This document shows positions 3,001 through 64,000 of a stretch of DNA of 64,000 nt, in pieces (the first letter of the stretch is position 1; every line of letters begins with the position of its first letter). The notes below the pieces were generated by a model. That model worked only from the letters and a program-made list of their open reading frames with translations. It was not told the DNA's origin and did not search any database. The position numbers were made by a program, and so were the translations under genes. This DNA is from Rhea pennata (taxonomy: Eukaryota > Chordata > Aves > Rheiformes > Rheidae), in the NCBI RefSeq assembly GCF_028389875.1, contig NC_084682.1:3482001-3546000 (forward strand), given 5' to 3'.

Positions 3001-6000
3001 GAAAAGCAGAAAATTTTGCCTTTAACGAATGTATAGCTAGAAGCCTATCACACTATAAGAAAGAAAACATATGGTGCAACTAATCAGATTGTCTGTTATC
3101 ACCCTACAAAAGATTTTAAGAAGATAAAATTATATCCTTGATATAGCCCAACATTTTGCTTGACCTGACTCGGAATACTGAGTGTCAAAACCCAAATTAG
3201 CCACCAGTACCAAGCAATAAAGAAAAAAATAGCTCAAATTAAAAATTATTTAAGTGAAAACATTGTAATTTTTACAATAAAAGACTTAACTCTTAAACTT
3301 TTAAAGCTGATTATCTTGCAATACTTCAGTTATTCCTTTGGAGTATAATTCAGCACTACTCTGGCTGTCTGATTTAACGGAAATATTTTTGCTGTGGTCT
3401 CTTATACAAAAAAAAGATCTGGCAGAGGTGTGACCTGTCAGCTCCTTCTTCAAATTTACTCTGGCACAGTAACTTGATTGAACTGATGACATGAAAGCAG
3501 GAGGCTTACAACAGAATTTGAAGGCAAAAGATTATCTGTCTGGTTACAAAAAATATCTTACCTAATTCAGTTTGTGTAAGCTTTGCTGTTCCTTTTGTTA
3601 CTGTTACCTATTTGATGCAATATAGTCAGAATAGACTTTAGGGACTGAGGCAGAGAAAAAAAAAAGTGATGCAATGGAGTAGTTGAAATCTTCCATCATA
3701 CGCAGTGATTTTTACATACATCTTTTTACTACGCCCAAATCAATGGAAAAAAAACAAACTGTAGACTTCAGAAGTCACATTCAGATTTACAGGAGCCATT
3801 GTAGCTCTCAGAAGACACCTCAGATAATGCTGCACACAAAGCCTAAGAACTGGCCTTTTGGATAAATGCAAGTGCCTCATAGTTAGAGGCTGTTACAGAC
3901 ATTTAAACCTTTAAATAATTTTAAAGAGAAAAAACAGAAAACAAAGATGTTGTGTATGATTAATGGGATCAAAAAAAAAAAAAAAACATAAAACATGAAG
4001 AAGCTAAGATAAAGATCAGAAAGAAAACTACCAGTGCAGAGTGAAAAACAAGCAATGAAAAACCAACAGTGGACAAGTAAAACAAAACTCCATCTGCTTT
4101 TATTAGGTACAAATGTTGAAATGCATAATTTCTGAGTCATTAATTTGGCTTTTTTAGACTACTTATTTTCCTGAAATTATGTCTCATCAGACAGAAATCA
4201 CTTTACGAAGATTTTCATCACAGTGAGGCAAAACATACAGCTTTAGAGTTTGGCAATAAGCCTTTCTTTTCAATCAGCATTAGGTTTTTCTTTTCTTTTT
4301 CTTTCTTTTTTTTTTTCTTAAAAAAAGAAAGAAAGAAAAGGTCACTTCAATGTCATGGGACCTACCTCAGTACTCTGAAGTCACTGAAAGAACTCCAGCA
4401 ACTTCCAGGGAGCGCTGGATAGACTTTAGTGCTGGGAAAGAGACAGAGTGCTTTTCACATGTTGTTTAATTACTCTTCCATCATTTTGCACTATTTTTAT
4501 TGTTAGGTACTTGCACATAATTTGAGATAGCAAGAACGACAGAATTCTATTCCCTAAAGTCTTTTCTTGTTCTTAGGGTTTCTTACATACTGTTATAGCA
4601 CCATTGCAGCTGTTCAGCTCAAATAAATAAGGCTTCTGAAGTAAGAGAATGCCTTTCCCTTGAGAACAGCAAGCAAATGCTGTGCAGAAAGTATCATTAT
4701 TAATTTATAATTATTTCATAACTTACCCCTGATATGCCAGCCTATTTAAAGGCCTCATTTTCTCTTCATCCCAATGAATGTGATGTTGGATATTAGCTAT
4801 AGTTACAAAATCTAAAACTTTATGACACATGGAAACATTTTGCTTTCCCCACCTTTTTAAAGCTGTAACGGTCTAAATTACATTCTGTAACATTAAAATG
4901 ATGTAGAAAGTTAATATTTTGTCACTTTGAAGAACAGATTTCTGTCATAAAACATACTGGGTGTAAACAGATTCCTACATCCTGCAAATGTTTACACACA
5001 GGAGTAAATCTCTTCTTCGAAGTACTCCTACAACTGTCAACAGGAATATCTGGGAGACTGTTACTCTTGATTAAGGATATATCCCAGTATATTACACAAA
5101 AATATGTCTAACAGGGAAAGTGCAAGCAATCTTCTGGAAACCAGTCTACGTTAATAGATAATTCCTCACAGTAAATTCTCTAATCAGTGCGACTGTACCA
5201 TACAACAAACTTCTATGTTGCGAACAACTGTTTTCCTATTTATTTTCAAACTCGGCTTTTAGCTGCAGAAACCTAATGGTTTCTAGTTTTTTCCTCTATA
5301 TGCATTACAAGCAAAAGGACACAGAGGAATGTTTATCTCTTATCTGGATATTGTCATTTTACTGTCTCAAACTTCTTAAAACAAGCTTTTCACTAGGGAG
5401 GAAATCAGTCAGCATCAGACCTAGTGGGGAAACCCTGCACTTGCTCAATGTCTATGGCTCTTACACAGTTCCAGATGTTCAGAACATTAATAATGCACTA
5501 ACTCAAAACCTCTTTTTGAAACTTTAGAATGTGCAAATTGCATTAAAACCTCTTTGCCCTCATTAATGGTATTGTTACAATCCCAGTACTCTGGAAAATG
5601 TTTTTTGGCATTTGTTTAACTTTGTGATATTGCCATTTACTCATTTTAACAGCCAGTGCTCAAATCTTAATGCTTTTAATAGGCCTGGCTAAACAGACTA
5701 CCATCTTTTGTAAATTTATTGAAGCAATTTATTAAATAAGTAAAAGTTGTCAGAAGGCAGTTTTTTTATTGATGGTAAAAAATAGGTTTCTTACAATTTA
5801 TTTACAAAACTCTGTTTCAGGAAAGTTTTAGAAATGAAAATATTCTGTTCTTTTTTTCAACATAATGACCAGCTCATTCTCTGCCACTCTGACAGAGATT
5901 TCTCCAAATTTTGTTTCTACCCACCTCACACAAATCCCAGTAAGAAAAAAAAAAGAAAAAAGAAAAGGGGGGGGGGGGTCTGTCCTAAACTAAGGAGAGC

Positions 6001-39344: not shown

Positions 39345-40843
39345 CTGCAATAGAAATAAAAAAAAATACTAACCAGTTAATATTAGCAAACATGGGAAAG
39401 TCTGAAACAACATACAGCAGCAAACAGAAACAAGCAGAAATTGCTAACCTGTTAAGAGGGTTAAGTGGCTCAGGATACTAAGAAAATTGCATTCAGGAAT
39501 TTATATATATGACATTAGTTCAAACCTGGTCCTCGTTACAAACAAGAACAAGTTAACATCTGATAAGTAATATTAGCAATTAAGCAGTTTAGAAATGACT
39601 ACAGATGAACTGTGCACATCATCCTAGATTTTATTTTGCAGAGTGAATATTGGCTAGGACATGAACCCAAATCCTTAGTGGGAAAAGTACTTTAGGATAT
39701 TAAATAACTACAGATAATCAGTTTTTCAATTCTGCAAGTTCATTAACTTGAGCTCCAAGACACTGCAAGCTACAGTGATACAGCCTACCACTATGGCTTC
39801 TAAATATTCCTTTTCATTTTGCAGCAGCAAGAAGATTAAGACTGGACACTGACTTTAAAAATGATATGTTTTCTTTCTTACAGTATTAATACAGTAATTA
39901 TTCAGGGGGGGAAATGAGTTGTAATTCACTTGACTATTCTGTTTATTTTCTTGCACTTCTTTCACTTTGGGAAATAAAAAGAAAGGTTGTGCTGTTTCAG
40001 CAGGTCACTCTATCCAGCTGAGTGTCTGGCTGGACAAACTTTACACCTAGTCCTATCTTCCCTATCATCCTAAAATATTGAAATTATTTAATTAAGAGTA
40101 TTGAAGAGAGACATGAGACTTTTAAAAAGAGCACAGTTTTTAAGCAGCACTAACTTTTATAGGTCTTCAGTTCTCAAAATATCTAAACGTGAATTTAAAT
40201 CAGCAACCTCCTTGAGAAATTGATTCACTAACCTGTGTCCTCATCTGACACTTAATGAGTAAATAAGTGCATCAAAAAGCCACCAACACAGGGCATGATT
40301 CAGCTTCACCGTCAGCTTCCTCAACGGGGAAAAGAAATCCTAACCAAAAGGGATCGCTAACATGAGTTCGCAGCCATGCCCTCCTTCCAGAAACGCAGCT
40401 GCACCTCATTGAAAGGCTTTCCCCTCACACGCAAAAGGCTTCTCTCAAACATTTTTTGAGCAGATCGTAAACAATCTTTGCCTAAGAAAAAGCAAGCCCC
40501 TACGAGAGGGGCGGGAGGGGTCAAGACCGCAGTGCTGCGGCCGTCGGAGACCAGGCTCGGGGAGGAGGGACCCCCCGGCCGGAGCCGTCCCTGGGCGAAG
40601 CAGCAGGCTTCCCCACCCCACCTCCACCCCCTCCCCTGGGGAGGCTTTTGGGGGACTCGTGGCGGGCGCGGAGCGCCAGGGCCAGCTGCTGTCATCCTCC
40701 CGCCTCGGCCTATAAAAGGCACCTCGGCGCTTCTTTTCCCTGTCGGGAGACAGAGAAGCAGGAGCCCCTGGAAAGCCCCGCTCCCCGCGGCGAGCCCAGT
40801 CCGCCAGAGCCGCGCTCCGCCGCAGCACGGCGCGGCCGCTCAC
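39345..40843 (-). other. BRIP1: BRIP1 intron 1
   Basis: This intron lies between the non-coding exon and the start-codon exon. Its upstream third (above about 40.45 kb) is part of the CpG island; the rest is ordinary AT-rich DNA. I see no exon, RNA gene or repeat of note. Confidence 0.6.
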
Positions 40844-41110
40844 CTCACACAGCGGCGACAGCAGCCCTCTTCAGCGAGCGTCCTTCCCGCCTCCGCCCCG
40901 GCCGCGGTCCTTCCCGCCAATCAGCTGACAGGAAAGGCTGCGAACCGCCAATCAGCAGGCCGCGAACTCAGCCGCTCCCACCTCCCCTATCCGCGCCGTT
41001 AGAACCAATCGCGGAGGGTCTTGTTGGCTCCTAGGTTGTCTTCGTTGCTGGGCAACCTCCCGGCGGTGACGGCGATGCCGGCGGCGCGGCCGGCGCCTCT
41101 CAGGGGCTCG
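40480..41110 (-). promoter_or_regulatory. BRIP1: BRIP1 CpG-island promoter with paired CCAAT boxes and E2F-like sites
   Basis: This GC-rich stretch is dense in CpG and stands out from AT-rich flanks. It holds CCAAT boxes at 40917-40921, 40948-40952 (31 bp apart) and 41005-41009, and two TTCCCGCC motifs at 40884-40891 and 40911-40918 that match E2F sites; the second abuts the first CCAAT box. Spaced CCAAT pairs bound by NF-Y, with E2F sites, are typical of S-phase genes, and BRIP1 is a known E2F-responsive gene in mammals. No TATA box is evident. Long open frames on the plus strand here are a product of high GC content. Confidence 0.75.
40844..40900 (-). other. BRIP1: BRIP1 non-coding exon 1 (5' end approximate)
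   Basis: The minus strand reads TGTGAG then GTGAGCGG at 40844/40843, a strong 5' splice site inside the CpG island. It would splice to the acceptor at 39345 (TTCTATTGCAG), giving a leader of this exon plus 24 nt. No in-frame upstream coding is seen. The transcription start is inferred from the position of the E2F and CCAAT motifs and is only approximate. Confidence 0.55.
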
Positions 41111-46400: not shown

Positions 46401-49400
46401 CATACCCTGGTTTTAATCAGTTCTTTATCCACAAGACTCAATTTATTATTTACATACGAACTCCCCAGATCAAACCAAACTGCAATGACCTATTCCTTTT
46501 GTGCCCTTCCTCTGTTCTAAACTTCACCCCAGGCCCAATTTGCACAGCAAAAAAAACCCATGGCAATGCCATGCAGACACGGCAATGAACAATTTAACAC
46601 ACAATGAAAAACACATTTATAGCAAAAAAACCTCCATCTCTTTTTAGGGGGGAAGATCACTGTTTTGGCAGAGGCAACCTTTCTTCTTCCACTCTAAACA
46701 GATAAAGTATGTCCAAACAAAAAGGAAAGAAGGTTTGTATTTGAAGCCAAATTTCAGTTTTGAATAACAGGTTAAATAATTTTAAAACACAGCAAGAAAG
46801 AAGTAACCCACACAAGATGTGAAACAAGTAATTTTAAGATGATTAGGCTAGTCTTCCTTGGCCTAGAACGGACACACTCTTTTGGCATACAGAAGGGCAG
46901 TGACACAAACAAAGCATGCGTTTAATGACGAGGAACAGGCATTGTTTAGCTGCCCCCGCTTGGCCACAGTACTGAGTGCTTGCACTGAAAGAGGGAGGAA
47001 ATGTACCTACTACAGTTCTGGGGGAAAGGGAGGCAGACGAGGGCGTCGTCATAATCTCTGAGGAACACAATAGTAGCATTCCACCACTTCATTTGGCTCT
47101 TTCCTAACCAAGCAACCATTAAAGAACTAAAAAAGAGCAAACCAGACCTGGAAATGAACCAGTTTGACTATGTTGGGATCAGCTATGTACATCTGATGCA
47201 GCAGACAGCAGATAAGACACTGGACCTCTCGAAGATTACACAGCAAGCTATCTTCTTCTTCTTTTAGTTCTGGGCTCTTAGAGCCAGCGGTACTATAAAC
47301 ACTTTTCAACAGGCTGTGGGTATTACTGCTCTGAGCTTTCTCTTCTTCTGTAGGTAAACAGATTTCTAAAAGAATCTGCACAGCAGCACTATCCTGGGAA
47401 GAAATTAAACAGTATAGCATGCGTTAAAACAACAACAACAACTACAACGCAAAGTAAGGGCAATGTAAGAAATTAAAGGCTGTCAAATGGCTAGAATTGT
47501 TTCCATTTAAAAAAGAATCAGTTCAGGAAAATCACAAACCCTGAGAATTTCATTGCAATAACCACTACCACCTTCAAAAAAACGCTGTGTATGTGAATCG
47601 AGACTCAAACAAGAACAAAAGTTTAAATCTGGAGCATCAACAGATTATCATAAGCATAAATCAGAAGAGTCATGTTGAAGGAATCAAATAATGTTTTAAA
47701 ATATATATGCAAATAATGTGTTAGTATTGAATCATCTACAGCCTTGTCATGTGCACATATCATCTACAGCCTTGTCATGTGCACATATAAATAGTGTATG
47801 CCATATGCAAGCAGTCAAACTAGCATAAGTAATTAATCCAATGATCTCTTAAATCATAGAGATCAGAAAATATGTACACGGCCATGTAATTCATAGTATT
47901 CAGAGGAGACGATCATTTAAATAAAAAAAACCTGCTACTAACTCAAAACCAATCTTCTAACAGGGTCATGCTTCCAGGGAGAAGTAAGAAGAGATCATCT
48001 GTGAAACAGGATTACTCAAGAATTCTCATCATGTCAAACTAAGTTAACCATTCTTCAGCCTCACACTTCGCAAGGTTGGCTGCTTCTCCTAAACAACATA
48101 ATTCAAATGATAGGGCTACTGCATTTATTCATGCTTTACTATTCCAATGCTGAGTAGAAAAAGAGCCCTCTGGATACCCCAAGCAAGAAGGAAAAAGTGC
48201 TAGTAAGCAAAATTCTTCTGTTCTAACTAACAAACAACACAAGTCCACTATTAATACAGTTAACCAACACAACGGTTTAGACTAGAAAACAGAAATTTTT
48301 TTATGCTGTGGGAAAAATGTTCATGTTATATTAGATACAATGTGGAGTCAAACGCAGACGCAGTTTTCTTTTTCCTATTAGCAGGAGTCAGTAATAAAAG
48401 TAGAAGTCTTCTTTTTTAATTTCCCATGCCTATATTTCTGTTTATCATTGCCTTTCCACACTTCAGTTAATATCTATTTCTCCACTTTACCTGAGCAGCA
48501 AGCAATGCATTTTTTAATTCTTCCCTGGTAACTTCTGGGGTCTCTGGACCCATTGCATTGTTTTGGGATGGCCTAATGTCCTGCTCCGCTGTTTCCTTTA
48601 GGTGAGAATTGAGGTAGGCTTTTGAAGCAAGAAGATATCCATTCAACATGTGCAAAGTTATATCCATCAGAGGGGGACTCCTAATACAGAAACACATGTT
48701 AAAGCAGAGGTATTTCAGGAGGCAGAACAATATGAACAAACTAAAAATACTCCTCAAAGATTCATTTCGCTGTAGTCTGGTTCATATTAAAGCTGTTTTC
48801 CTTAACACAGCAAAATACTAATCATCACAATTCCTTCTGCTGTCCTGCCATTCAATCCTACTTTTCTCATGCACATGTGGGCATGCATACACTCTACAAA
48901 AACAAGGAACTCCTGAAGAAACTGATTTTTAACAGTCTATGAATAAAAGAAATCAGAAAATTATCTGCTGTACATGAAGTAAGCCAAAATAATGATCTGA
49001 ATGATGGAGATAGAAAAACAAGGTAGACAAGCTCTAAATGACTGCTTCCACAATGCTAAGATGACAAGTTTTCAAATCATACTGCTTTATACATCTCCTT
49101 AACAGTTCTAGAAATTTAGGATTTACATTTTTCATCCAGGGCTGAGTGGACATACATTTAAATATTTCATCTACAGGTTGGCCTTAAAAATGTGATCAAT
49201 AGAAAATTGAAATCTTGCAGAGAGGTACAAAAATGTACCAAGTCAAATAGAAATTTGATTAATGACTAAATTGCTATAAGCCAAAGGCAGACAGAAATAT
49301 GCAAGCAAGAATATGAAGAACAAATCAAGATGACTATTAGCCATTTATTATAAACAGAAAGATAATGAAAAAGCAAAAAAGGGAAAAAATAAGCTACAAC

Positions 49401-52400
49401 TGACAAAAGACATGAATACAAAAGGAATAAAGCTAGAGGCTGAAGTACATTTAAAACGATTAACGTTTTTAAAATAACAAATGCAATTTTCTTCAGACCT
49501 GTTAAAAAAACAGAGCTGCTATTTGCAAATTTTAGTTTGAATTGTTTGCATTACTTCATGTTCTTCTTTAAAGCTGGTTTGTTGCTATCAGTTATGATCC
49601 TTTTCACTACTAAAACTCTCAGTTTATTCTTCTACATCAAAGCCATAAATCAGTGTTATACATCTCCTCTGTCATCACTGACATCTAGAGGAACATATTT
49701 CTAAGTAATACTAAAATAATTACTTGAGAAATTAATCAAATCTATTTTTGTCATATTCACCAAGCATCCAATTGCAGAAATTGTTACCCAAAAAGACAGA
49801 ATACTTCCAGGCCCAAGAGGGATGGCAAAAGACAAAGTGTAAGGATGCTACAGCTACAACCACCACCATGTGGCAGCAGCCATTTTAAGCATGCCACAAT
49901 GTCTATTTAGAAAAAAATTCACATACACAAATCTAACAAAATGGATGGATCTGTGTGCAAATCCATTTACAATCCTAGAGTTTCCAAAATAGGACCGAGT
50001 GCAAGGTTTGTCCAACAGGACACTCATCTGGGTAGTGTGACAAGCTGAAACAGCACAGTTCAGTCAGCACACAGAACAACAAGCTTACTACAAGAAAGTG
50101 GTGCAGCAAAAGATGGAACTTGCAAGCCCATATGACTAGTCTGAAAATGTTTTAAAGTACTGAAAGTTTTCAGAAGTTTTTTGTGAGATAACATTGATGC
50201 ATAGTGAGTGGTAAGTACCACAGAGCATCAGAAGAAATTAAAGAAGAGAGATGCTTACCTATGAACTCTCTGATCACATCTTAGTACAATCAAAGGATCA
50301 ATCATCAGATCATTCTGAGTGTATTTCTGCTGTCGGACTATTTTTACTGAAGGCTGCAGAGCATTAACAGTCATGACCCACAATCTACAAATGAGATTAT
50401 TTTTAACATTTTTAGAAGATAATCCGTAAGAGAAAGAGGATCACATAAGCATTTGGATATTCACTTATCTCAATTAGATGTATTTTTCTAGGCCTATCAA
50501 GGATCAAAAAACCCATACTGCATTTGCAGCTCCTGAAATTAACCAAGATATAGTCAACTTACATTCACTGAAATGAAAATGTTTTTGTTGCAACACAGAG
50601 TATCTGCTTCCTCACAAAAAAAACACTCTTACCAGAACAAGTGAGTGTTTCAGCAATAATGTATCATAAATGATGTATACTATAAAACAATTCTATTATA
50701 TTTTAAGCCAACTGGAGACTCCCTTTACCCCAAGAACAAAAACTACCTAGATCAAAAATTTGAATGAAGCACAAAGGAATGTAGATCTCCAACCCAGCCT
50801 ACTCAATTGCTGGTCACACTAATTCCTGGACCAGTCATAAGTTTACTATAACAGACAAAGGCAGTATATCACTATTTTTTTTTAAACAGAATGTTGCATT
50901 CCATCCATCTGCAAAAACAGATGAAACAGTAGTTTGAACTTACCTTCTTGGCATCACAGTGTTAAGAACCATCCAAAGTTTATTGACAGTCTGAAGAATC
51001 CTCCGTGGGACTCCAGCATTCAGCAACCGACTCATGTTTGAAGTTAGTACTTCTGCATATGGGATCAGTTCACCAGCAGAGAGAAGCGTTAAATGTTCCA
51101 GAATCTGCATCAGCTGGGTATGATTTCCTGGGAGCATGGAAAACGCTATAAAATAAATACAATGGAATTTTGATAAAACTGGACTCTGACATTTTAAAAA
51201 TCCTTCAAGTCTGTTCATAGATTCAGAACAAGCCTGCAGTAGAACATTCTTGTTACGCAAACGCAGCGTACTCAAATGATTCGGACAGATACACACTCCC
51301 AGACCCACTATATTCCAACCTATTAGGGAAAAAAAACGCTTACTTCAAATGAAGCTATTTACCTTCCTGGAGCTGTTTGGGAGAATGATTTTTGGCAATA
51401 TTTGTAAGAAGCATCCTCCTCAGTAAGGCATCAGTGCCTGTGATCTGCTCCTCACAGATCCAGTCTTCCACAATACAGAGGTGTGGATAGTTAGTAGCAA
51501 GAAGGCGTAACAGTGCAGAATGCAAGCCTGTGAGGATATTCAGACAGCATAAATCTTAAATATCTGCATCATTCACATGAACATATGACATCCCTATCAT
51601 CTCAACAACAGACCATGACTGAATCACTGCTGAGAAGTTTAAAAAGCTTGCATGTTTAGAGACTGAAATTGTAACTCCAACAGAAAGGAAAAGTTACCTT
51701 TTGGAAAATGGGATGACCCTATAGTAACTTTAAAATGTAGTCCAGAACAATCTAAAATTCTCAGGTAATTCAAACCTACTCTAAAAAGAGCCATCTTCCC
51801 CAAACTTTCACTATGACTCTCTAAATATACCTGTAACCTCATTCATGACATTTTAAAACAAACAAAAAAGAGAAGCCATGCTATGAAACAAACAACAGAC
51901 GTAAAGCTGGAAATAGGCTTAGCCTTCCTTCTTTATGCGTGCTGGACTTGCACATGCAGATATACCTCCAAGTTCCTGCTGCAGTCCTTGCGCCTGGCGG
52001 ATGAGGTACTTGATTGGAATTTGATCCATTAATGCTGAAGAGTAAGACTTGGGTTTTTTTTGCATGGCAGCTATAAAGAAACAGAAACCACACATAACAT
52101 GAAGTTGGAAAAAGTATTTCCCCAACTGAATCAATAAAGAAAATGTAAAGCATTAGCCTATACATTATTCAGGCAGAATACCGAAAACTCCAAATACCAC
52201 ACGTCACTCCTGTTAAGCGTATTAACTTAAGCCCTTCAGGACACCATTTCTGTGAACTACATCTTTTCCTGGCAGCATCTGGGTTTGATTCAAAGATCTC
52301 CTTAACATTTTTGATCAAGTGTAACTGATTTTGAGACCATAGCTCTAAAATTTCTTTATTCAACATAAAACAATCTGCTTATCAGTTGTTTCATGGAATT

Positions 52401-55400
52401 TCACCTGTTAGTGCACACAACAACTGATAATGGGATGGAGGTTAGAAACGCAGAAAGAATGAAAGCTGCTTTTTAATGTGTTTCTTCCTTGTATAATATG
52501 AACAAAATAGCACTGATGAATGCTGGAAGTTTTAAACACTAAAAAGGGTAGCTAAAAATGCACATCAGATTTAAATACCATGTTTTCAATAAAATCAAGC
52601 TCAATCAATAAACCACACATTGTAAAGTCTGAATTTCAAAGCCAAAAAGGGATCATTCAACTTTGTCAACAACAAAATCACCAAGCAGAGGAAACATGTT
52701 TAGGCTGCAGGTTTGATGGCACATGAATAAATGAAGATCTAAAGTTAATTAACAACACTTTGTTACTTTTTGCTATATTTAATCAGATTGTTATGAACAT
52801 TTACTAGTAAGCTTTTGACCAAATTGGATCCTTTTCAATCTAGAAAAAAAAAACAGACTATATAGTTTTAGTAGAACTTTCATCTCCTTAGTTTCTAGAA
52901 TAATGCTGTACTTACTAAAAGAATTACACTGCCAAAATAAACTCTGATCTAAACTTCTTACATCATACTTGAATCTAACGCTAATATGAACTTTGTTTTT
53001 TGTAAGAATTTCTGTATTTGCATCCAACTTTCAGTTCCACTGTTGCCCATTGATCACATTCACATATACCTAGTGTCTTTGTGTTTGCTAGAAGTGCTTC
53101 TTCATAGGACAGGACATAGTAGAGGACAAGCAACCGTGTTGTGATGCTGTAACGCTGAGCAAGTCGAGCATTTTCTCCCTGCACATAAAACCACAAACAA
53201 AGGTCATGTTGCATCCGTAATACTTGAGAACAAAAATTTGGATTTACCTGCAAATACGAAGAAAGATAAGGCAGTAAACCTTGGATTAAAAATCAAGCTG
53301 TAGGAGGTCCAAGTTGAAGGTTGTAGGAAACTTACTTTTCTAAAAACAAATGACAAAACTTCAAACATAAAACGTGTTTTTGATATCTTGGGATACCAGA
53401 ATGGAACTATCCAAGGATTTCAATGTAAGTCAATGCTTCCCACACATTCTAGATGTGCCCGAGTGACCACTCTCATACTTCTTTCAAAAAGAAAGTGTTT
53501 CTTCCAAAATTAAGTAGCGTGTTTCATTAAAGTAAGATTTTTGATGTAATAAAACTGAATCAGAAAAAAAATTGCATGACAGTGCCGAAAAAGCACCTCC
53601 ACTCTCTAATTCATTTTACCGCTAGAAAGAACCAGTAACTTTGGAAAGTGTTTTTCTTTTCTTTTCTTAGTAGCAAGAGTTGGTCACTTCCCAAGTAACA
53701 GGCTAAAGGGGGGACAATAGCAACACTCAGAAATCTGAGTAGCTCTAACAAGATTCCCATCAAAATACGTGATGGGAGTCTATTTACTATATAGCAGTCA
53801 AAAACAAAAAATAAGGCAACTTTCAGAATCAGCATCAAGCATATGTAAAATGTACTGAACCACATATTCACCTGAACACTTGTGAAATGAGCAAACAAAT
53901 AAATTACCCCAGTGAGTCCTTGAAAAACATTCAGGATCTCCTGTTCCGTGACAGGCTGGTTTGTGGCCTCTGGGTTGGATTTTGATGCCGGAGTAAGAAC
54001 AGAATTAATGTAGACATCAATAAGAGGAAGCAACTGAGGATGAAGTGGAGTGGTGGTTTCACAGAGCTGCCTATAGATCCAGTCCTAGAAAAATAAACGT
54101 CCCTACAGGTTTAGTTTCAAAGACAGATGGCAATGGTTTTGTTTGCAAGAAAAACCCTTTTAACTGGTTAGGCAAAATGTATTTGCATGGGGCTTTGACT
54201 TGGGAAAGCATAATACCAGCTCCGAGTTGGAGGTGGTCATAAACTTCGTATCATGGAAGAGTTTCCCTGTCCTGTACAGCCAACAAAATTTGTCCTGGAT
54301 GGAAATATTCTGACCAGGAGTTTATTAAGTGTAGAAAGGGAAGAGAGATAACTTCTTTATAACTTCCTTAAGTTCTACTCCAGGATTACAGAGCTAAAAT
54401 TAGATACCCTAATTTAATAATGCTCCTTCTTAAATGACATGGTAATAGGCAATTAGATTCATCAAGAATTCTGTTCATTCTGTTCAATTCTGTTTTGTAA
54501 CTTCTTAGGTAATTTTACCAAAATAAATAAATAAGTAAATGTTTGCAAAATCCAGTCAAAATCCAAAATTACAAACAGAAGTAAAATGAAGGTCATACCT
54601 TAATGGATACTTTGTGCTTGGTGAATGACCGACTTCTTAAAAGCTGGTAAATGCAGTGAATAGGTAAAAACCCAGTAATGTTAGCACTGAGATTGCCTGT
54701 AACAGGTACCCGAACTGCATGGGCTGTGACAACCTAAGGGAAAGTTATAATTACCAAGAAAAATAGCACAAACATTCACCTGATCACAATACATAAGCAC
54801 AACATGAAACACAACTAAGTTGCAAAAATACATCCATTCCGGCATGTATTCAGTTTTGTGTGTTTGGAAGCTAAACAACTCTTTTATGCAGTTTGCACAA
54901 TACGTGTACAACTGTAGCACATGTATTACATTTGCATACAATTCCCTGCTGTAGCAAAAAATAGTTCATACTGGACAATTATTTTCATTTGCTTCCTTAT
55001 AATTTAAAAACTCTAGTGTTCAAAAAAGCATAACCAGATCAATGTACAAAAAGAAAAGGTCAAGGCTTTTCCCAGAACCAGCAGCAAAAAGCTTTGACTT
55101 AAAATACCTGTTCAGTGAAAATCTCCTGTGTGAAGATAGTCTTCATTCTGCTCAGTGAGCTGGGCTTAATAACAATCTGAAACAAAGAACACAGTACCTG
55201 CTGTTTTAAATTCTGCCTTTCTTAAGTACTCCAAACTTAGTTCATAAACTCTTAACCTTTTCCAATTTGTCTTGTAGTACCAGGAAAACATTCAGGTATC
55301 TATACTTGGAATGTAAAGCAATATGATTTTCAAATTTCTCAAGTTCACGACTCCACACATCTTTCTCATCCTGAAAATTAACTACCTAGCTTTTACATTT

Positions 55401-59000: not shown

Positions 59001-61283
59001 AGCACAAACTTTTCACCTCATGACATGCCTCAGTCTGCGAGACAAGGACTATTAGCAAGGATAGACCAGCTTCCTAGACCCAATCATTCACTGTCAGAGT
59101 CAGCCTTTATAAAGGCGACCTACAGATGAAAAATCGCATCAGGCCCACAATGAGTCTAGAGCAGGCGGTAAGCACAGATAACGAGCGTGATGAGAATGAG
59201 AGGCCTTCCAGCATCTCTAAGCATAAATGCATCCAAATTACATTTCACAAGGCAAACACTCCTGAGTTCAAATATTTACGCTGTTTAGCCTAGAATCAAG
59301 TTGATCGCTAGACTTTATTTCAAAGCTTTACAAAAATAAGTTGAGTAAGAAGAAACTGTAACTCACCCTCATTAAAACTATCAGGAACATTAGCCACTAG
59401 GAGGCACAGAAACCAGGCTCCATTTTTAATGTGCAACAGAGCTTCCGCCACATCAACTATGGGCAACAGTGATGGCAGCTCTGGATAAAGAGACAATTTT
59501 AGCAGTCACAGTAAAGCAAAAACTTTTAATATAAATTTATGTAACACGTTCAAGTTAATGAAGGAAAGATTACTCTTTGGTCTGTTCCTCTTTCAAAGAG
59601 CTGGACATCCAAGATTAACCTTAATTCAGCTATGACAGCTCCAAAAGTTAGGGTAAGGGGTTTTTTTTACGTTTGTAAGAAGCAGTGAAGTCACAAGCAA
59701 AACAGTATCAACTAAAGCACTATAAATACAGAATACTGCACCTGCTTGCAAAATGCAGAGAACATCTGCTGCTTCTTCCAGATAGACAGGACTCTCGAAG
59801 AGCTCAGACGATTTGAGAAAAAACTCACCGTTTGATTCTGACACCTACAAGACAATATTCATCATCACAGAACGGAACTTTCATGAAGTGATTTGTATAA
59901 CTCAACCAACATCTGTCAGACTTTCAAGCTTCAAGCAAGGCTTTGAATTCAACAGATTGAATATGACAGAATCATAGAATATATTAAAAACTGTCAAAAA
60001 TGTACAGCTATAAACATAGGATAGGTATACAAAGATGTTTAGAGTAAGAAACACCTACTAGTACAGATAATTAAATACAGCTGGTATTATTACTTCTTTC
60101 TAAAAGAAAGAAAAACAGCCTACTAAGAATTCTATAAACAGTGTAAGTTTACAGGAAGAAAATAAAATGGAGAGAAAAATGAGAACTATAGTAAATAAAT
60201 ATCATACTGTAATATCGGTAAAAAAAACGGTATAGACAAAAGAAATAGCCACAATATCAACTTGAAGTATGATTTCCAAACCTATAAGTCGTCACGTTAT
60301 ATCTGAGTACAGCACATTACAGAACATACAGAGCCTGTACAGTATTAGAAAAGATCGCCCTCATTTGTTGAGAGGAAGGAAGACTTTCCCTGCAAAGCTG
60401 GGTTCATTAGGAATTTAATCACAAGTTCAACACGACTGGGAGCTTAAATCTTGGTGAAGCAGCTACGGAGTGGAGAAGAGCCCTGACACATCAGGGCAGC
60501 ACCCAGATTCGAACCAGACATCGTTTCAGCACACCCACGCAGCAGCCTTCTGCTTCTTCACTTTCAGGAATATAAAATTCACAAAGGCCAAGCGACGGAG
60601 ATGCAAAACTTACCTTATTCATAATCGCTAGTAATTCGCTAAGCACGAGACGAAGCCGACGAGGCGAATCGCTGTGCTCGAACTCCAGCGTCAGCCCGTG
60701 CTGGAGCTGTGACACCAAGATGCTCTCCCCGCTACCTCCTCCGAGCTTGTGTCTAACAGGCAATTAAAACGTAGCCGCCGTTAAGAAAGCCCACGAGCAG
60801 GGGGCCCTCCCAGGTAAAGGCAGACGGGAATCCTGCGGGGGCTCTTCCCAGGCGGGGGAAGGATCGGAGAGGGCTCTTGTAAGCGCAGCGCCCTATCGCG
60901 CCGCCTTCGATGGATAAAGGCGGCGCTCGGCGAACCTCAGCCTCGACCCGCCGGCCCCAGCGCCCCGCGCAGGACGCGCTGCGCCCTTACCGCAGCTGCT
61001 GCTCCTTGCTGGCGTCCTGCTCCAGGGCGTGGAAGTCCACCGAGAGCAAGGCCACGATGGAGTTGACGGCCTCCACGCCCGAGAGGAGCCGCAGGATGAG
61101 CTTCTTGTCCTGCGCCCAGCGCTGGCTCTGGTCGGCCGGGGCGCACAGGGCCATGCGCACCAGGCAGGGCAGCAGCAGCCGCAGCTCGGGGTCGCTCAGC
61201 GCCGCCAGCCGCACCACGTCCACCTTCTGCATGGCCTCGAAGGCGTAGGGGCTCACGAACTGGAGCCCCGAGCACTCCGCCAT
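43253..61283 (-). CDS. INTS2: INTS2, Integrator complex subunit 2, complete: 24 coding exons, 1192 aa
   Basis: INTS2 is a nuclear helical-repeat scaffold subunit of Integrator, which cleaves snRNA 3' ends and terminates promoter-proximal RNA polymerase II transcripts; it has no catalytic motif. Joined exons (minus): 60991-61283, 60614-60752, 59742-59844, 59367-59480, 58548-58678, 58260-58433, 57500-57726, 56719-56844, 56068-56139, 55839-55953, 55108-55176, 54599-54733, 53908-54084, 53070-53178, 51966-52070, 51363-51527, 50944-51145, 50259-50384, 48491-48680, 47148-47393, 46107-46214, 44617-44722, 44260-44436, 43253-43422. They total 3579 nt with every phase compatible and no internal stop; human INTS2 is about 1204 aa. 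The start sits in a perfect Kozak context (GCCGCCATGG), and its N-terminus LQFVSPYAFEAMQKVDVV aligns with the human start. Introns are 114-1578 nt with GT-AG ends. The same frame stays open upstream of the ATG, which I attribute to the GC-rich minisatellite. Confidence 0.96.
44260..44436 (-). CDS. INTS2: INTS2 exon 23, codons 1078-1137
   Basis: It encodes VLTQSKRYAFFMPTLPCLVS and CASDVATQTRDFDPIIT, with donor C|GTAAGC. The intron is 837 nt. Confidence 0.95.
44617..44722 (-). CDS. INTS2: INTS2 exon 22, codons 1043-1078
   Basis: It encodes IFAIQLLSFLCIQYALPKSL and ends NVMGTLLT, with donor G|GTAAGC. The intron is 180 nt. Confidence 0.95.
46107..46214 (-). CDS. INTS2: INTS2 exon 21, codons 1007-1042
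   Basis: It encodes GYPCELLALTVAGIPSMHIC and ends AQPELEKQ, with donor CAG|GTACTG. The following 1384-nt intron has an A run near 45819-45835 and a 130-codon plus-strand open frame with no recognisable similarity. Confidence 0.95.
47148..47393 (-). CDS. INTS2: INTS2 exon 20, codons 925-1006
   Basis: The largest internal exon, 82 codons: DSAAVQILLEICLPTEEEK, a variable Ser-rich linker, then NLREVQCLICCLLHQMY. The donor is CAG|GTCTGG. The intron is 933 nt. Confidence 0.95.
47733..47788. repeat. Perfect 28-bp tandem duplication in INTS2 intron 19
   Basis: Two identical adjacent 28-nt copies, beginning CATCTACAGCCTTGTCATGT, at 47733-47760 and 47761-47788. The rest of this 1097-nt intron is unremarkable. 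Confidence 0.95.
48491..48680 (-). CDS. INTS2: INTS2 exon 19, codons 861-924
   Basis: It encodes SPPLMDITLHMLNGYLLASK and REELKNALLAAQ. A variable acidic/Asn-rich linker in the middle differs in length from human. Confidence 0.95.
50259..50384 (-). CDS. INTS2: INTS2 exon 18, codons 819-861
   Basis: It encodes LWVMTVNALQPSVKIVRQQK and LIVLRCDQRVH, with donor AG|GTAAGC. The following intron (1578 nt) is the longest in INTS2 and shows nothing notable. Confidence 0.95.
50944..51145 (-). CDS. INTS2: INTS2 exon 17, codons 752-819
   Basis: It encodes AFSMLPGNHTQLMQILEHLT and NKLWMVLNTVMPR, with donor AAG|GTAAGT. The start of this exon is more divergent from human than the rest. The intron is 559 nt. 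Confidence 0.95.
51363..51527 (-). CDS. INTS2: INTS2 exon 16, codons 697-752
   Basis: It encodes LHSALLRLLATNYPHLCIVE and ends NHSPKQLQE, with donor G|GTAAAT. The intron is 217 nt. Confidence 0.94.
51966..52070 (-). CDS. INTS2: INTS2 exon 15, codons 662-697
   Basis: It encodes AMQKKPKSYSSALMDQIPIK and QAQGLQQELG, with donor G|GTATAT. The intron is 438 nt. Confidence 0.95.
53070..53178 (-). CDS. INTS2: INTS2 exon 14, codons 626-662
   Basis: It encodes GENARLAQRYSITTRLLVLY and EEALLANTKTL; the acceptor is TTATGTGCAG and the donor G|GTATAT. The intron is 999 nt without visible features. Confidence 0.94.
53908..54084 (-). CDS. INTS2: INTS2 exon 13, codons 567-625
   Basis: It encodes DWIYRQLCETTTPLHPQLLP and ends NVFQGLTG. 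The donor GGG|GTAATT was chosen because it joins to GENARLAQRYS as in human. The frame stays open for about 99 more codons into the 729-nt intron. Confidence 0.93.
54599..54733 (-). CDS. INTS2: INTS2 exon 12, codons 522-566
   Basis: It encodes VVTAHAVRVPVTGNLSANIT and ends RSFTKHKVSIK, with donor AAG|GTATGA. The intron is 514 nt. Confidence 0.95.
55108..55176 (-). CDS. INTS2: INTS2 exon 11, codons 499-521
   Basis: A 23-codon exon encoding IVIKPSSLSRMKTIFTQEIF then TEQ; the acceptor is TTTGTTTCAG and the donor CAG|GTATTT. The intron is 374 nt. Confidence 0.94.
55839..55953 (-). CDS. INTS2: INTS2 exon 10, codons 460-498
   Basis: It encodes ISGVSASFGEMLLLVAMYFH and ends LVCSTLGMK, nearly identical to human. 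The intron is 662 nt. Confidence 0.95.
56010..56045 (+). repeat. A36 homopolymer inside INTS2 intron 9
   Basis: 36 consecutive A residues (T36 in the transcript) occupy almost a third of a 114-nt intron. Confidence 0.9.
56068..56139 (-). CDS. INTS2: INTS2 exon 9, codons 436-460
   Basis: A 72-nt exon encoding TPEQEQLMVMWLSWMIKEEA; the acceptor is TTTGTGCAG and the donor AAG|GTGAGA. The 114-nt intron that follows contains a 36-nt homopolymer. Confidence 0.93.
56719..56844 (-). CDS. INTS2: INTS2 exon 8, codons 394-436
   Basis: It encodes PTDEEAEQLLQLMTSRPPAT and ends LLAFSTLV. The acceptor is CGATTTAG, the donor CAG|GTACCT. The intron is 579 nt. Confidence 0.94.
57500..57726 (-). CDS. INTS2: INTS2 exon 7, codons 319-394
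   Basis: The acceptor is CTCACACAG. It encodes RKRDNISSVLWQMRRQLLLE and KASALLRLYCALMGIAGL, with donor AA|GTAATT. The intron is 655 nt. Confidence 0.95.
58260..58433 (-). CDS. INTS2: INTS2 exon 6, codons 261-318
   Basis: It encodes VEECHLPGLGVALTLDHTKN and VRTWFGTFIRNGQQ, a whole-codon exon of 58 codons. The intron after it is 533 nt. Confidence 0.95.
58548..58678 (-). CDS. INTS2: INTS2 exon 5, codons 217-260
   Basis: It encodes CRGLIKNGERQDEESVGG and CKMNPSQALRVRGMV, with donor GTG|GTAAGT. The intron is only 114 nt and carries a 19-nt T run (58459-58477, plus). Confidence 0.95.
59367..59480 (-). CDS. INTS2: INTS2 exon 4, codons 179-217
   Basis: It encodes LPSLLPIVDVAEALLHIKNG and ends VANVPDSFNE, with donor G|GTGAGT. 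It is too short to appear as a long open frame; found from homology and phase. The next intron is 688 nt. Confidence 0.94.
59742..59844 (-). CDS. INTS2: INTS2 exon 3, codons 145-179
   Basis: It encodes VSESNGEFFLKSSELFESP and EEAADVLCILQA, with donor CAG|GTGCAG. The intron is 261 nt. Confidence 0.95.
60614..60752 (-). CDS. INTS2: INTS2 exon 2, codons 98-144
   Basis: The acceptor is GCCTGTTAG and the donor AAG|GTAAGT. It encodes HKLGGGSGESILVSQLQHG and ends LAIMNK. The next intron is 769 nt and empty. Confidence 0.95.
60991..61283 (-). CDS. INTS2: INTS2 exon 1, start codon, codons 1-98
   Basis: It opens MAECSGLQFVSPYAFEAM and ends EQDASKEQQL plus two bases before GTAAGG. The exon lies within the CpG island. 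The intron is 238 nt. Confidence 0.95.
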
Positions 61284-61412
61284 GGCGGCGGCCGGCACCG
61301 CCTGCCCGCGGACCTCGCCCGCGGGGGAGCGGCCGCCCCGCCGCCCTGCCGCCGCCGCCCGCCTTCCGGCGCGCGCCGCGCGCGTCACCGCCGGAAGTGA
61401 GGTCACCCCCGC

Positions 61413-61549
61413 GCGGCCGTTGGGCGGCCGTTGGGCGGCCGTTGGGCGGCCGTTGGGCGGCCGTTGGGCGGCCGTTGGGCGGCCGTTGGGCGGCCGTTGG
61501 GCGGCCGTTGGGCGGCCGTTGGGCGGCCGTTGGGCGGCCGTTGGGCGGC
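61413..61549. repeat. 12-copy 11-bp GC-rich minisatellite upstream of INTS2
   Basis: Unit GCGGCCGTTGG (minus CCAACGGCCGC) repeats without error 12 times, with a partial copy at the end. CCGTTGGG recurs at 61417 and then every 11 bp to 61538. Each unit carries CAACGG on the minus strand, a match to the Myb consensus YAACKG. Because 11 is not a multiple of 3 and no unit has a stop, all frames stay open through it. Confidence 0.97.
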
Positions 61550-61646
61550 GCGCGCGGGGTGAAGGGAAGGGAGCCCGCCCCGCCATCGCCGCCCTGCCCC
61601 CGCGGCTGTAAATAACGGGACTCCACAAGCAAGGCTTCATGAATAA

Positions 61647-61652
61647 TTTATT
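61647..61652 (-). terminator. MED13: Probable MED13 polyadenylation signal AATAAA
   Basis: TTTATT on the plus strand reads AATAAA on the minus strand, 364 nt before the INTS2 start codon. Another AATAAA at 62938-62943 could give a shorter UTR. Confidence 0.6.
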
Positions 61653-63616
61653 CCATTTGATTTTTTTTTTTAAAAAGTATAAACTTTTTTTTTCTCATTT
61701 CCTCAATCACAATTTGTACAACTCAGTGTTTATGGCATTCGGCAGCGATAGTGTTTGTTCCGTAATCACGTTTTTGTCATGATAAATACGACGGCTTGGA
61801 CCAGTAACTGTCACCGCTGTGCAAGAACTTAAAAACGGCCCTCGGTAACGCGACCCCGCTGCGGGGAGGGGAGAGGGGAACATGTCCAGTAACGAGGCCA
61901 CAGGCTGCAACGGGCACGCCAGGGCTTTGCCAGGTCCTCACCTCCAGTTTACACGGGAAATACTAAAGCTATATTAGTAACTTCCTGAAAAAGCGCCCCT
62001 GAGGATTATGGTAGGTCCCAAATCCAGTTTTACTGTAAATTAAGTTTTACTCTACTGAAAATAAAAGGTACGGGCCCACCACCACCCCATAGCACAAGGC
62101 ATAGTCCTGGCTCTTCTAATTAAAAAAGATGCGCACACGCACGCACACAAACCTTCCCAGCTGCGGGTTGGCAAGACAGTAATGTCATGTAATGTCACCT
62201 CATTGAGAAAACATTCTCAAAAGAAACCCAGATCAAACATTGTTTATGCAGCACTACCATTAAAACAGACTGATATGCTGTACCATACTGTTGTGCAGCA
62301 AATTATATGGTGTATTAGCATTTTAAACACATTTTACTCTTATTTTTGAAAGCTTTAAAATAATGTAACATACTATTTTGATAATACAGTATTAACAAAT
62401 AGTGCTTGATTAAAGACATCTGCAAGTCTTCATAGCAACACATGAATTTAAAATTACCATTGTAGAAATACAATAATCTGCGCCATACTGACAGCTAAGT
62501 AAGAACATAGCTGAGGATTTAAATATAAATTCATTTATTTTTACTTATCTTAGGAAATGTTAGAAAGATTTACAGGTTACAGCTACTTTAAAATTTAAGG
62601 GTTGTCTGCAAGTACAGTTGGTGGCCTGCTGGTCTAGCAACAGTGTTTACAGAAACCTGATTCAAATAATAGAATAAGTCACAGTCCAGATGACTACATG
62701 GCTTAAGTACAGTATAGCTAAGTTAAAATACATCGTTTTTTAATCTGAATGGAAAAATTTCAGATGCATCTTTCACTGTCTATCTAACAAGAGAAGATAA
62801 ACTTTCACAGCTACTTAACAGAGCGCTGCCAGGAACAATGTTTTTTTTGCAAGACCATTTTGAGAAGCTAGAGCTGAAATTTTCAAATACGTTAAGCCTG
62901 TACTTACTAAACCACCCAAATTTTTGGATTGCGACAGTTTTATTCATAAGTCACTAATTATGTGCCCTTAAAAGGGCAAGAACAGCTAAGTGAAAGAAAC
63001 TAACAAAAATATGCCCAATGTAGTAGCTGGCTCCATGGGGATGGCAGTTTTGATATGCACATTGCTGGCTCTGACTATCACTTTCAGAAATGGCCCTCCT
63101 GATCTTTTCTAGTGATTACAGTTGTATAATTTACTTAAACTGCATTTGGGGGAGGGGAAAAATGGCATATTTCACAGTTGGAGAGTTTCACAGCAAAGGT
63201 TGTGGTCCGGTTAACAATTATACCCATGTTCAGGCAGCTGATTCACTTACCTTTACGGATACAAGTCAGATTTAATCAAAAAAAAATGCTTGAAAATTCC
63301 AGTTTTAGAAGCACTTTTCCCCTTAAAAATCTTAGCCAAATGAGAAAGAAAACACCTGCTCTAAAACAAAAATGCATTGTTTAATCTGTGGTACATTATC
63401 AAGAAAAAGTAATGGACAGACCCAGTTTTTAACTTTAATATCAAAATATGCTGACTTCTGATTGCAATCACTTTTTTTTTTTTTGAAGAAATGACTGAAA
63501 ATTTTTGTCACCAATTGTACAACTTCTTTATACAAAAACCAAAAAAGTTGCTAATATTGTATATTCACAATTCAAGGAGACTTTATAAGAAAAATGATCT
63601 CAGGCAAATATTTTGC

Positions 63617-63660
63617 ATTTACAAAACATGATTTTCATCAACGTGTTAAGTTTTGTAAAT
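63617..63660. repeat. 11-bp perfect inverted repeat in the MED13 3' UTR
   Basis: ATTTACAAAAC (63617-63627) pairs with GTTTTGTAAAT (63650-63660) across a 22-nt loop. Confidence 0.75.
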
Positions 63661-64000
63661 ACAAGTGATTTCTTCTTTGTAGAGGATTAACAATGGGTGC
63701 ACAAATGGATCTTAAAACTTGCTCCTTTCAAGGTTTAGACAGGCAAAATGAACAGCTCTGAGACCCAGGTGATAAACTCGCATGGGTTCTCACAACAGGC
63801 TCACGAGGGCACTGCAGGAGTAAGTCTTCAACCTGGCAGTCAGAAGATGAGGAACTAAGAACAAGCATATGCTGTTGCTCCTCAGCACCCGTAGGGGCCA
63901 TTTTGGAGCAGCAGCAGACATTTGGCATGTGCTAGGAGAATGGAAGGAAACTACTGAGGAAAAATCGTGACTGTAGACAGAGGGAGAGGTTTACAAAAGA

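Follow-up and report, generated by a model that had tools for sequence, protein, structure and literature searches.

A perfect 11-bp GC-rich minisatellite upstream of INTS2 in Rhea pennata, probably within the promoter

Does a short tandem repeat close to the start of INTS2 serve as a regulatory switch, and if so, through which factor and which property of the repeat? The question is posed by an array in the window analysed here, a 64,000-nucleotide stretch of the Rhea pennata genome, which a sequence-only reading had described as a run of Myb sites that would all face the same side of the helix, suggestive of recent expansion or ongoing turnover, and with a copy number that may tune INTS2 expression. 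INTS2 is a subunit of Integrator, a complex that acts in snRNA processing and in the termination of paused transcription, and an element of variable length in its promoter could make a general transcription complex differ from one individual to the next.

The array and its setting

The array spans 137 bp and consists of 12.45 perfect copies of GCGGCCGTTGG on the plus strand, or CCAACGGCCGC on the coding (minus) strand. TRF reports it with period 11, 12.5 copies, 100% matches, and a score of 274, the highest among the 17 TRF rows in the window; a direct script check agrees, finding that each base equals the base 11 positions before it and that the perfect run stops exactly at 61413 and 61549, so that the twelve perfect 11-bp units first noticed are borne out. 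Copies of a single unit longer than 6 bp thus follow one another head to tail, as in a minisatellite. The ends are sharp, only 13/32 and 11/32 flanking bases agreeing with the extrapolated period, and the unit is all but confined to the array: with at most 1 mismatch it occurs 13 times in the window, 12 of these inside the array, compared with 0.05 expected from dinucleotide shuffles of the window, and the lone near-copy elsewhere (1 mismatch) lies at 40537. The array has a GC content of 0.825 and contains 25 CpG dinucleotides, placed alike in every unit. No exact match to three array units was found in a prokaryote genome collection, a result with little bearing on a vertebrate array.

The gene downstream is INTS2, as had been supposed. 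The minus-strand ORF starting MAECSGLQFVSPYAFEAM is INTS2 exon 1, matched by phmmer to PDB chains annotated "Integrator complex subunit 2" (E 3.2e-51) and confirmed by a match to Pfam PF14750, and two more minus-strand ORFs matching PF14750 lie at 53611-54033 and 50940-51308. With the A of the start codon at 61283, the array does lie 130-266 bp upstream of the ATG. It is enclosed by a CpG island of about 0.7 kb, and a GC-rich unit close upstream of a gene, the arrangement known from CSTB, is present here (array GC 0.825, island CpG observed/expected 1.01, 130 bp from the ATG). Coordinates are collected in Table 1.

Table 1. Features in and around the array (positions in the window; a dot marks features given without a strand)
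Feature	Position	Strand	Details
Minisatellite, 12.45 perfect units GCGGCCGTTGG / CCAACGGCCGC	61413..61549	.	TRF and periodicity check
Twelve GGGCGG (GC-box core), one per 11 bp	61422..61548	+	Counts; positions read off the sequence
Twelve CAACGG (YAACKG), one per 11 bp	61417..61543	-	First 61417-61422, last 61538-61543
CpG island	60900..61620	.	GC 0.766, CpG observed/expected 1.01
ETS-type site CCGGAAGTG, followed by AGGTCA at 61400-61405	61391..61399	+	Between array and ATG; also delimited as 61391-61397
Second ETS-type site, CCGGAAG	61363..61369	-	Between array and ATG
INTS2 exon 1, coding part	60991..61283	-	Start codon at 61283; GTAAGG, a putative splice donor, reads down from 60990
Upstream ATG sharing the INTS2 frame, no stop across the array	61284..61586	-	A at 61586
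AATAAA, which may be the poly(A) signal of the gene upstream	61647..61652	-	Motif match

Whether the array belongs to the promoter or to the transcribed leader depends on where INTS2 transcription begins. ETS sites in CpG-island promoters sit near the transcription start; because two ETS-type sequences (CCGGAAG and CCGGAAGTG, the latter followed by AGGTCA) stand between array and ATG, a start below the array, which would put the array in the promoter, appears the more likely arrangement. TATAWA is absent from the array and from the island flanks (60900-61412 and 61550-61620). No Rfam family matched at gathering score within 60000-64000, and a scan for bacterial-type promoters and terminators, uninformative for vertebrate DNA, found nothing.

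A perfect GC-rich repeat also invites the suspicion that its copy number is wrong, having been collapsed or expanded in assembly. High GC content (0.825) and perfect identity between units would both favour such an error, but one ordinary read should span 137 bp, and the ends are sharp with non-periodic flanks; we regard an artefact as unlikely and treat the array as real.

Myb sites, GC boxes, and helical phase

The repeated consensus sites expected of a Myb-responsive array are there: twelve matches to YAACKG, all CAACGG, all on the minus strand, and one every 11 bp (low coordinates 61417 to 61538), exactly as first read, whereas the remainder of the window holds 101 matches on both strands (1.58 per kb). 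One study of the chicken mim-1 locus, as excerpted, terms YAACGG the strong Myb element, the two strong promoter sites named there being TAACGG (PMC6022509); the array has no TAACKG, its Myb-type sites being CAACGG. The proposal that sites roughly one turn apart share one side of the helix holds for near neighbours but fails for the array as a whole. At 10.5 bp per turn successive sites rotate by 17 degrees per unit and by 189 degrees over the 11 steps from first to last, so that they do not share one helix face; the end-to-end drift is 149 degrees at 10.6 and 228 degrees at 10.4 bp per turn, and falls to 0 only at exactly 11.0. We therefore reject same-face packing of all sites.

Nor is Myb singled out by the unit. 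GGGCGG, which we take to be the GC-box core, and GCCN4GGC are each present 12 times in the array, just as CAACGG is, so the description of the locus as a Myb-site array is right in that every unit carries the site and goes too far in picking out Myb. Composition-matched permutation yields 4620 units in all, of which 1.2% contain the Myb consensus, 7.1% GGGCGG, and 2.4% GCCN4GGC; 17.6% contain at least one of 21 consensus motifs and 1.4% at least two, the last figure overstating the surprise because some of the motifs overlap, while two of them, GGGCGG and GCCN4GGC, joined the list after the unit had been viewed. Given so many noticeable motifs, the Myb match is somewhat unusual but not remarkable. 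Being rarer than the GGGCGG match, it could nevertheless be a selected site, and this counts against a reading in terms of GC boxes.

Could c-Myb, A-Myb, or B-Myb acting on CAACGG then set the level of INTS2 by copy number, as in the R6 minisatellite of apple MYB10? Twelve sites in one orientation and the "strong" label given to YAACGG speak for it, as does the apple precedent itself, where one versus six 23-bp units alters auto-activation and reporter data suggested maximum activity with 12-30 engineered units (PMC5671642, as excerpted). Against it, the sites drift around the helix, sites only 11 bp apart may be too crowded for every one to be occupied simultaneously, the array is without TAACKG, and two further motifs recur just as often; such control by Myb could exist, but on balance we think it improbable. 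Apple R6 is the nearest known Myb array by analogy, sharing tandem Myb-type units in a promoter, but it differs in that it belongs to a plant gene, has a 23-bp unit, and has had Myb binding and autoregulation established by experiment, whereas the rhea sites are motif matches. In the FeLV-945 LTR, a 21-bp element that binds c-Myb is triplicated and likewise offers tandem repeats in a vertebrate setting, but in a retroviral LTR, in three copies, and with binding studied by experiment (PMC524034).

Sp/KLF factors are, in our judgement, the plainer candidate for a putative route to INTS2, since GC boxes are frequent at CpG-island promoters. Repeated GGGCGG in such a promoter is what we find, with twelve copies in the array, to which the minus strand of the island flanks adds five. 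A longer form of the GC box, GGGGCGGGG, which we take to be the better Sp/KLF site, occurs 0 times in the array, in the island flanks, and in the window, and the affinity for Sp/KLF may therefore be modest. Tandem GC-box promoters are a known class, and the rhea locus resembles them in having repeated GGGCGG within a CpG island lacking TATAWA; it differs in that the putative sites keep a strict 11-bp spacing inside a minisatellite.

An open upstream frame through the array

Were INTS2 mRNA to start above 61586, the array would be transcribed, and an upstream ATG could be read through it into INTS2 in a frame that depends on copy number. The frame is indeed open into INTS2 from the ATG at 61586, which has G at -3 and +4, and likewise from a second in-frame minus-strand ATG at 61640. 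Since 11 cannot be divided by three, the outcome recurs every three units: gain or loss of units moves the upstream ORF with period three in copy number (13/13 lengths computed, splicing being ignored for ORF ends beyond exon 1), cycling from an in-frame extension, to a short ORF that stops 119 nt ahead of the start codon, to an ORF that overlaps the start codon out of frame.

An open frame is, however, expected by chance here and is no evidence of translation, since the flanks are open in 94% of 5000 dinucleotide shuffles and the array is stop-free in all three minus frames. Moreover, the phmmer match to solved INTS2 starts just two residues before the main Met, leaving the remaining extension uncovered, the context of the main ATG is good too, and the ETS-type sites favour transcription beginning below the array. 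We therefore hold a transcribed leader of this kind to be very improbable, and more improbable still the further proposition that, given an mRNA start above 61586, the array acts as a three-state translational switch. If such a switch did exist, changes in length would step INTS2 output cyclically rather than along a slope.

Origin, likely length variation, and neighbourhood

We consider it fairly probable that the array is a GC-rich slippage minisatellite in the INTS2 promoter, that it is probably length-variable, and that its action, if it has one, depends on how many GC boxes there are and how they are spaced. This reading is supported by i) a perfect array with sharp ends; ii) a CpG island with an observed/expected ratio of 1.01; iii) folding beyond that of shuffled sequences; iv) the GGGCGG copies in array and island flanks; and v) the parallels with the CSTB dodecamer and with human promoter VNTRs described below. 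The array, its unit identity, the island, the motif matches, and the gene are shown directly; the course of events that we infer from there is as follows: replication slippage or unequal exchange would have created the array inside the INTS2 CpG-island promoter, most likely just upstream of the transcription start; the self-complementary CGGCCG in the unit could form single-strand hairpins that promote slippage and help to maintain unit identity; array length would then probably differ between individuals; and any effect on INTS2 would probably depend on how many GC boxes (Sp/KLF) are present and on how far apart promoter elements stand, rather than on a dedicated Myb switch.

Folded as RNA, the minus strand reaches -72.8 kcal/mol (z -3.49, 1/200 shuffles as good) and, folded as DNA, the plus strand reaches -52.2 (z -3.57, 0/200 shuffles as good), scores that a tandemly repeated palindromic core can be expected to give. 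Neither fold is a single stable structure, the RNA centroid being unpaired and the DNA minimum-energy structure having frequency 0 in the ensemble. Hairpin-aided slippage is a plausible cause of both expansion and unit identity. In a separate scan of plus-strand 61301-61700 for G-quadruplexes, the G3N1-7 motif was absent, and with loops of up to 12 there was one match, at 61422-61571.

Perfect identity had been taken to suggest recent expansion or ongoing turnover. If 1-4e-9 substitutions per site per year are assumed, 137 bp would acquire one substitution after 1.8-7.3 million years on average (95% bound 5.5-21.9), and identity is thus compatible with turnover within some million years, yet no proof of recent expansion. 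Recent expansion, length variation, and an effect on INTS2 are each plausible.

The closest known case, by analogy, is the CSTB promoter dodecamer of EPM1, a 12-bp GC-rich unit lying, according to one paper, 175 bp before the gene start, with 2-3 copies in healthy people and 30-80 in patients, in whom the expansion lowers expression (PMC10814315 and PMC9655992, both as excerpted). Altered spacing of promoter elements is named as a contributing cause in the reference list of PMC9655992, and in the excerpted text of that paper repeat size is not reported to correlate with either severity or age at onset, an argument against simple dosage at CSTB. The two loci share a GC-rich unit in a vertebrate promoter; they differ in unit and gene, and in that the rhea array has 12.45 copies, compared with 2-3 in healthy people, and is known from one sequence. 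Human eVNTRs offer a broader parallel, as short tandem repeats less than 500 bp from a gene start: 57% of the promoter VNTRs tested were polymorphic, and among expression-associated VNTRs length correlated positively with expression in 65% (PMC8024321, as excerpted), but length variation and association with expression, known at the human loci, are putative properties of the rhea array. The titles and abstract openings of literature on INTS2 (promoter, minisatellite, synteny) and on chicken promoter VNTRs leave the array undescribed.

For the present, the array joins the other GC-rich minisatellites of promoters; it might affect INTS2 expression, and its chief use is as a candidate VNTR for genotyping.

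The order of genes in vertebrates is BRIP1-INTS2-MED13. Peptide keywords place the end of INTS2 near 43.2 kb, followed in the same orientation by BRIP1-like exons at 39.3 and 38.4 kb, in agreement with that order (3/12 keywords had no match, and a match to SLQFV at 3767 looks like chance). The gene upstream of INTS2 is presumably MED13, although a look with one peptide keyword found no MED13 coding sequence, and the AATAAA at 61652-61647 may be its poly(A) signal; if it is a poly(A) signal, 364 bp separate it from the INTS2 start codon, with the array in between. AATAAA lies about 100 bp upstream of the array; were it the end of the neighbouring gene, that gene and INTS2 would almost adjoin.

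Two further observations concern the rest of the window. At 40357-41034, several overlapping ORFs with GC-rich-looking codons run on both strands, and together with the near-copy of the unit at 40537 they suggest that another CpG island lies there, possibly the promoter of BRIP1. Within the span of the INTS2 gene, 47731-47788 is a perfect 28-bp direct duplication (2.1 copies).
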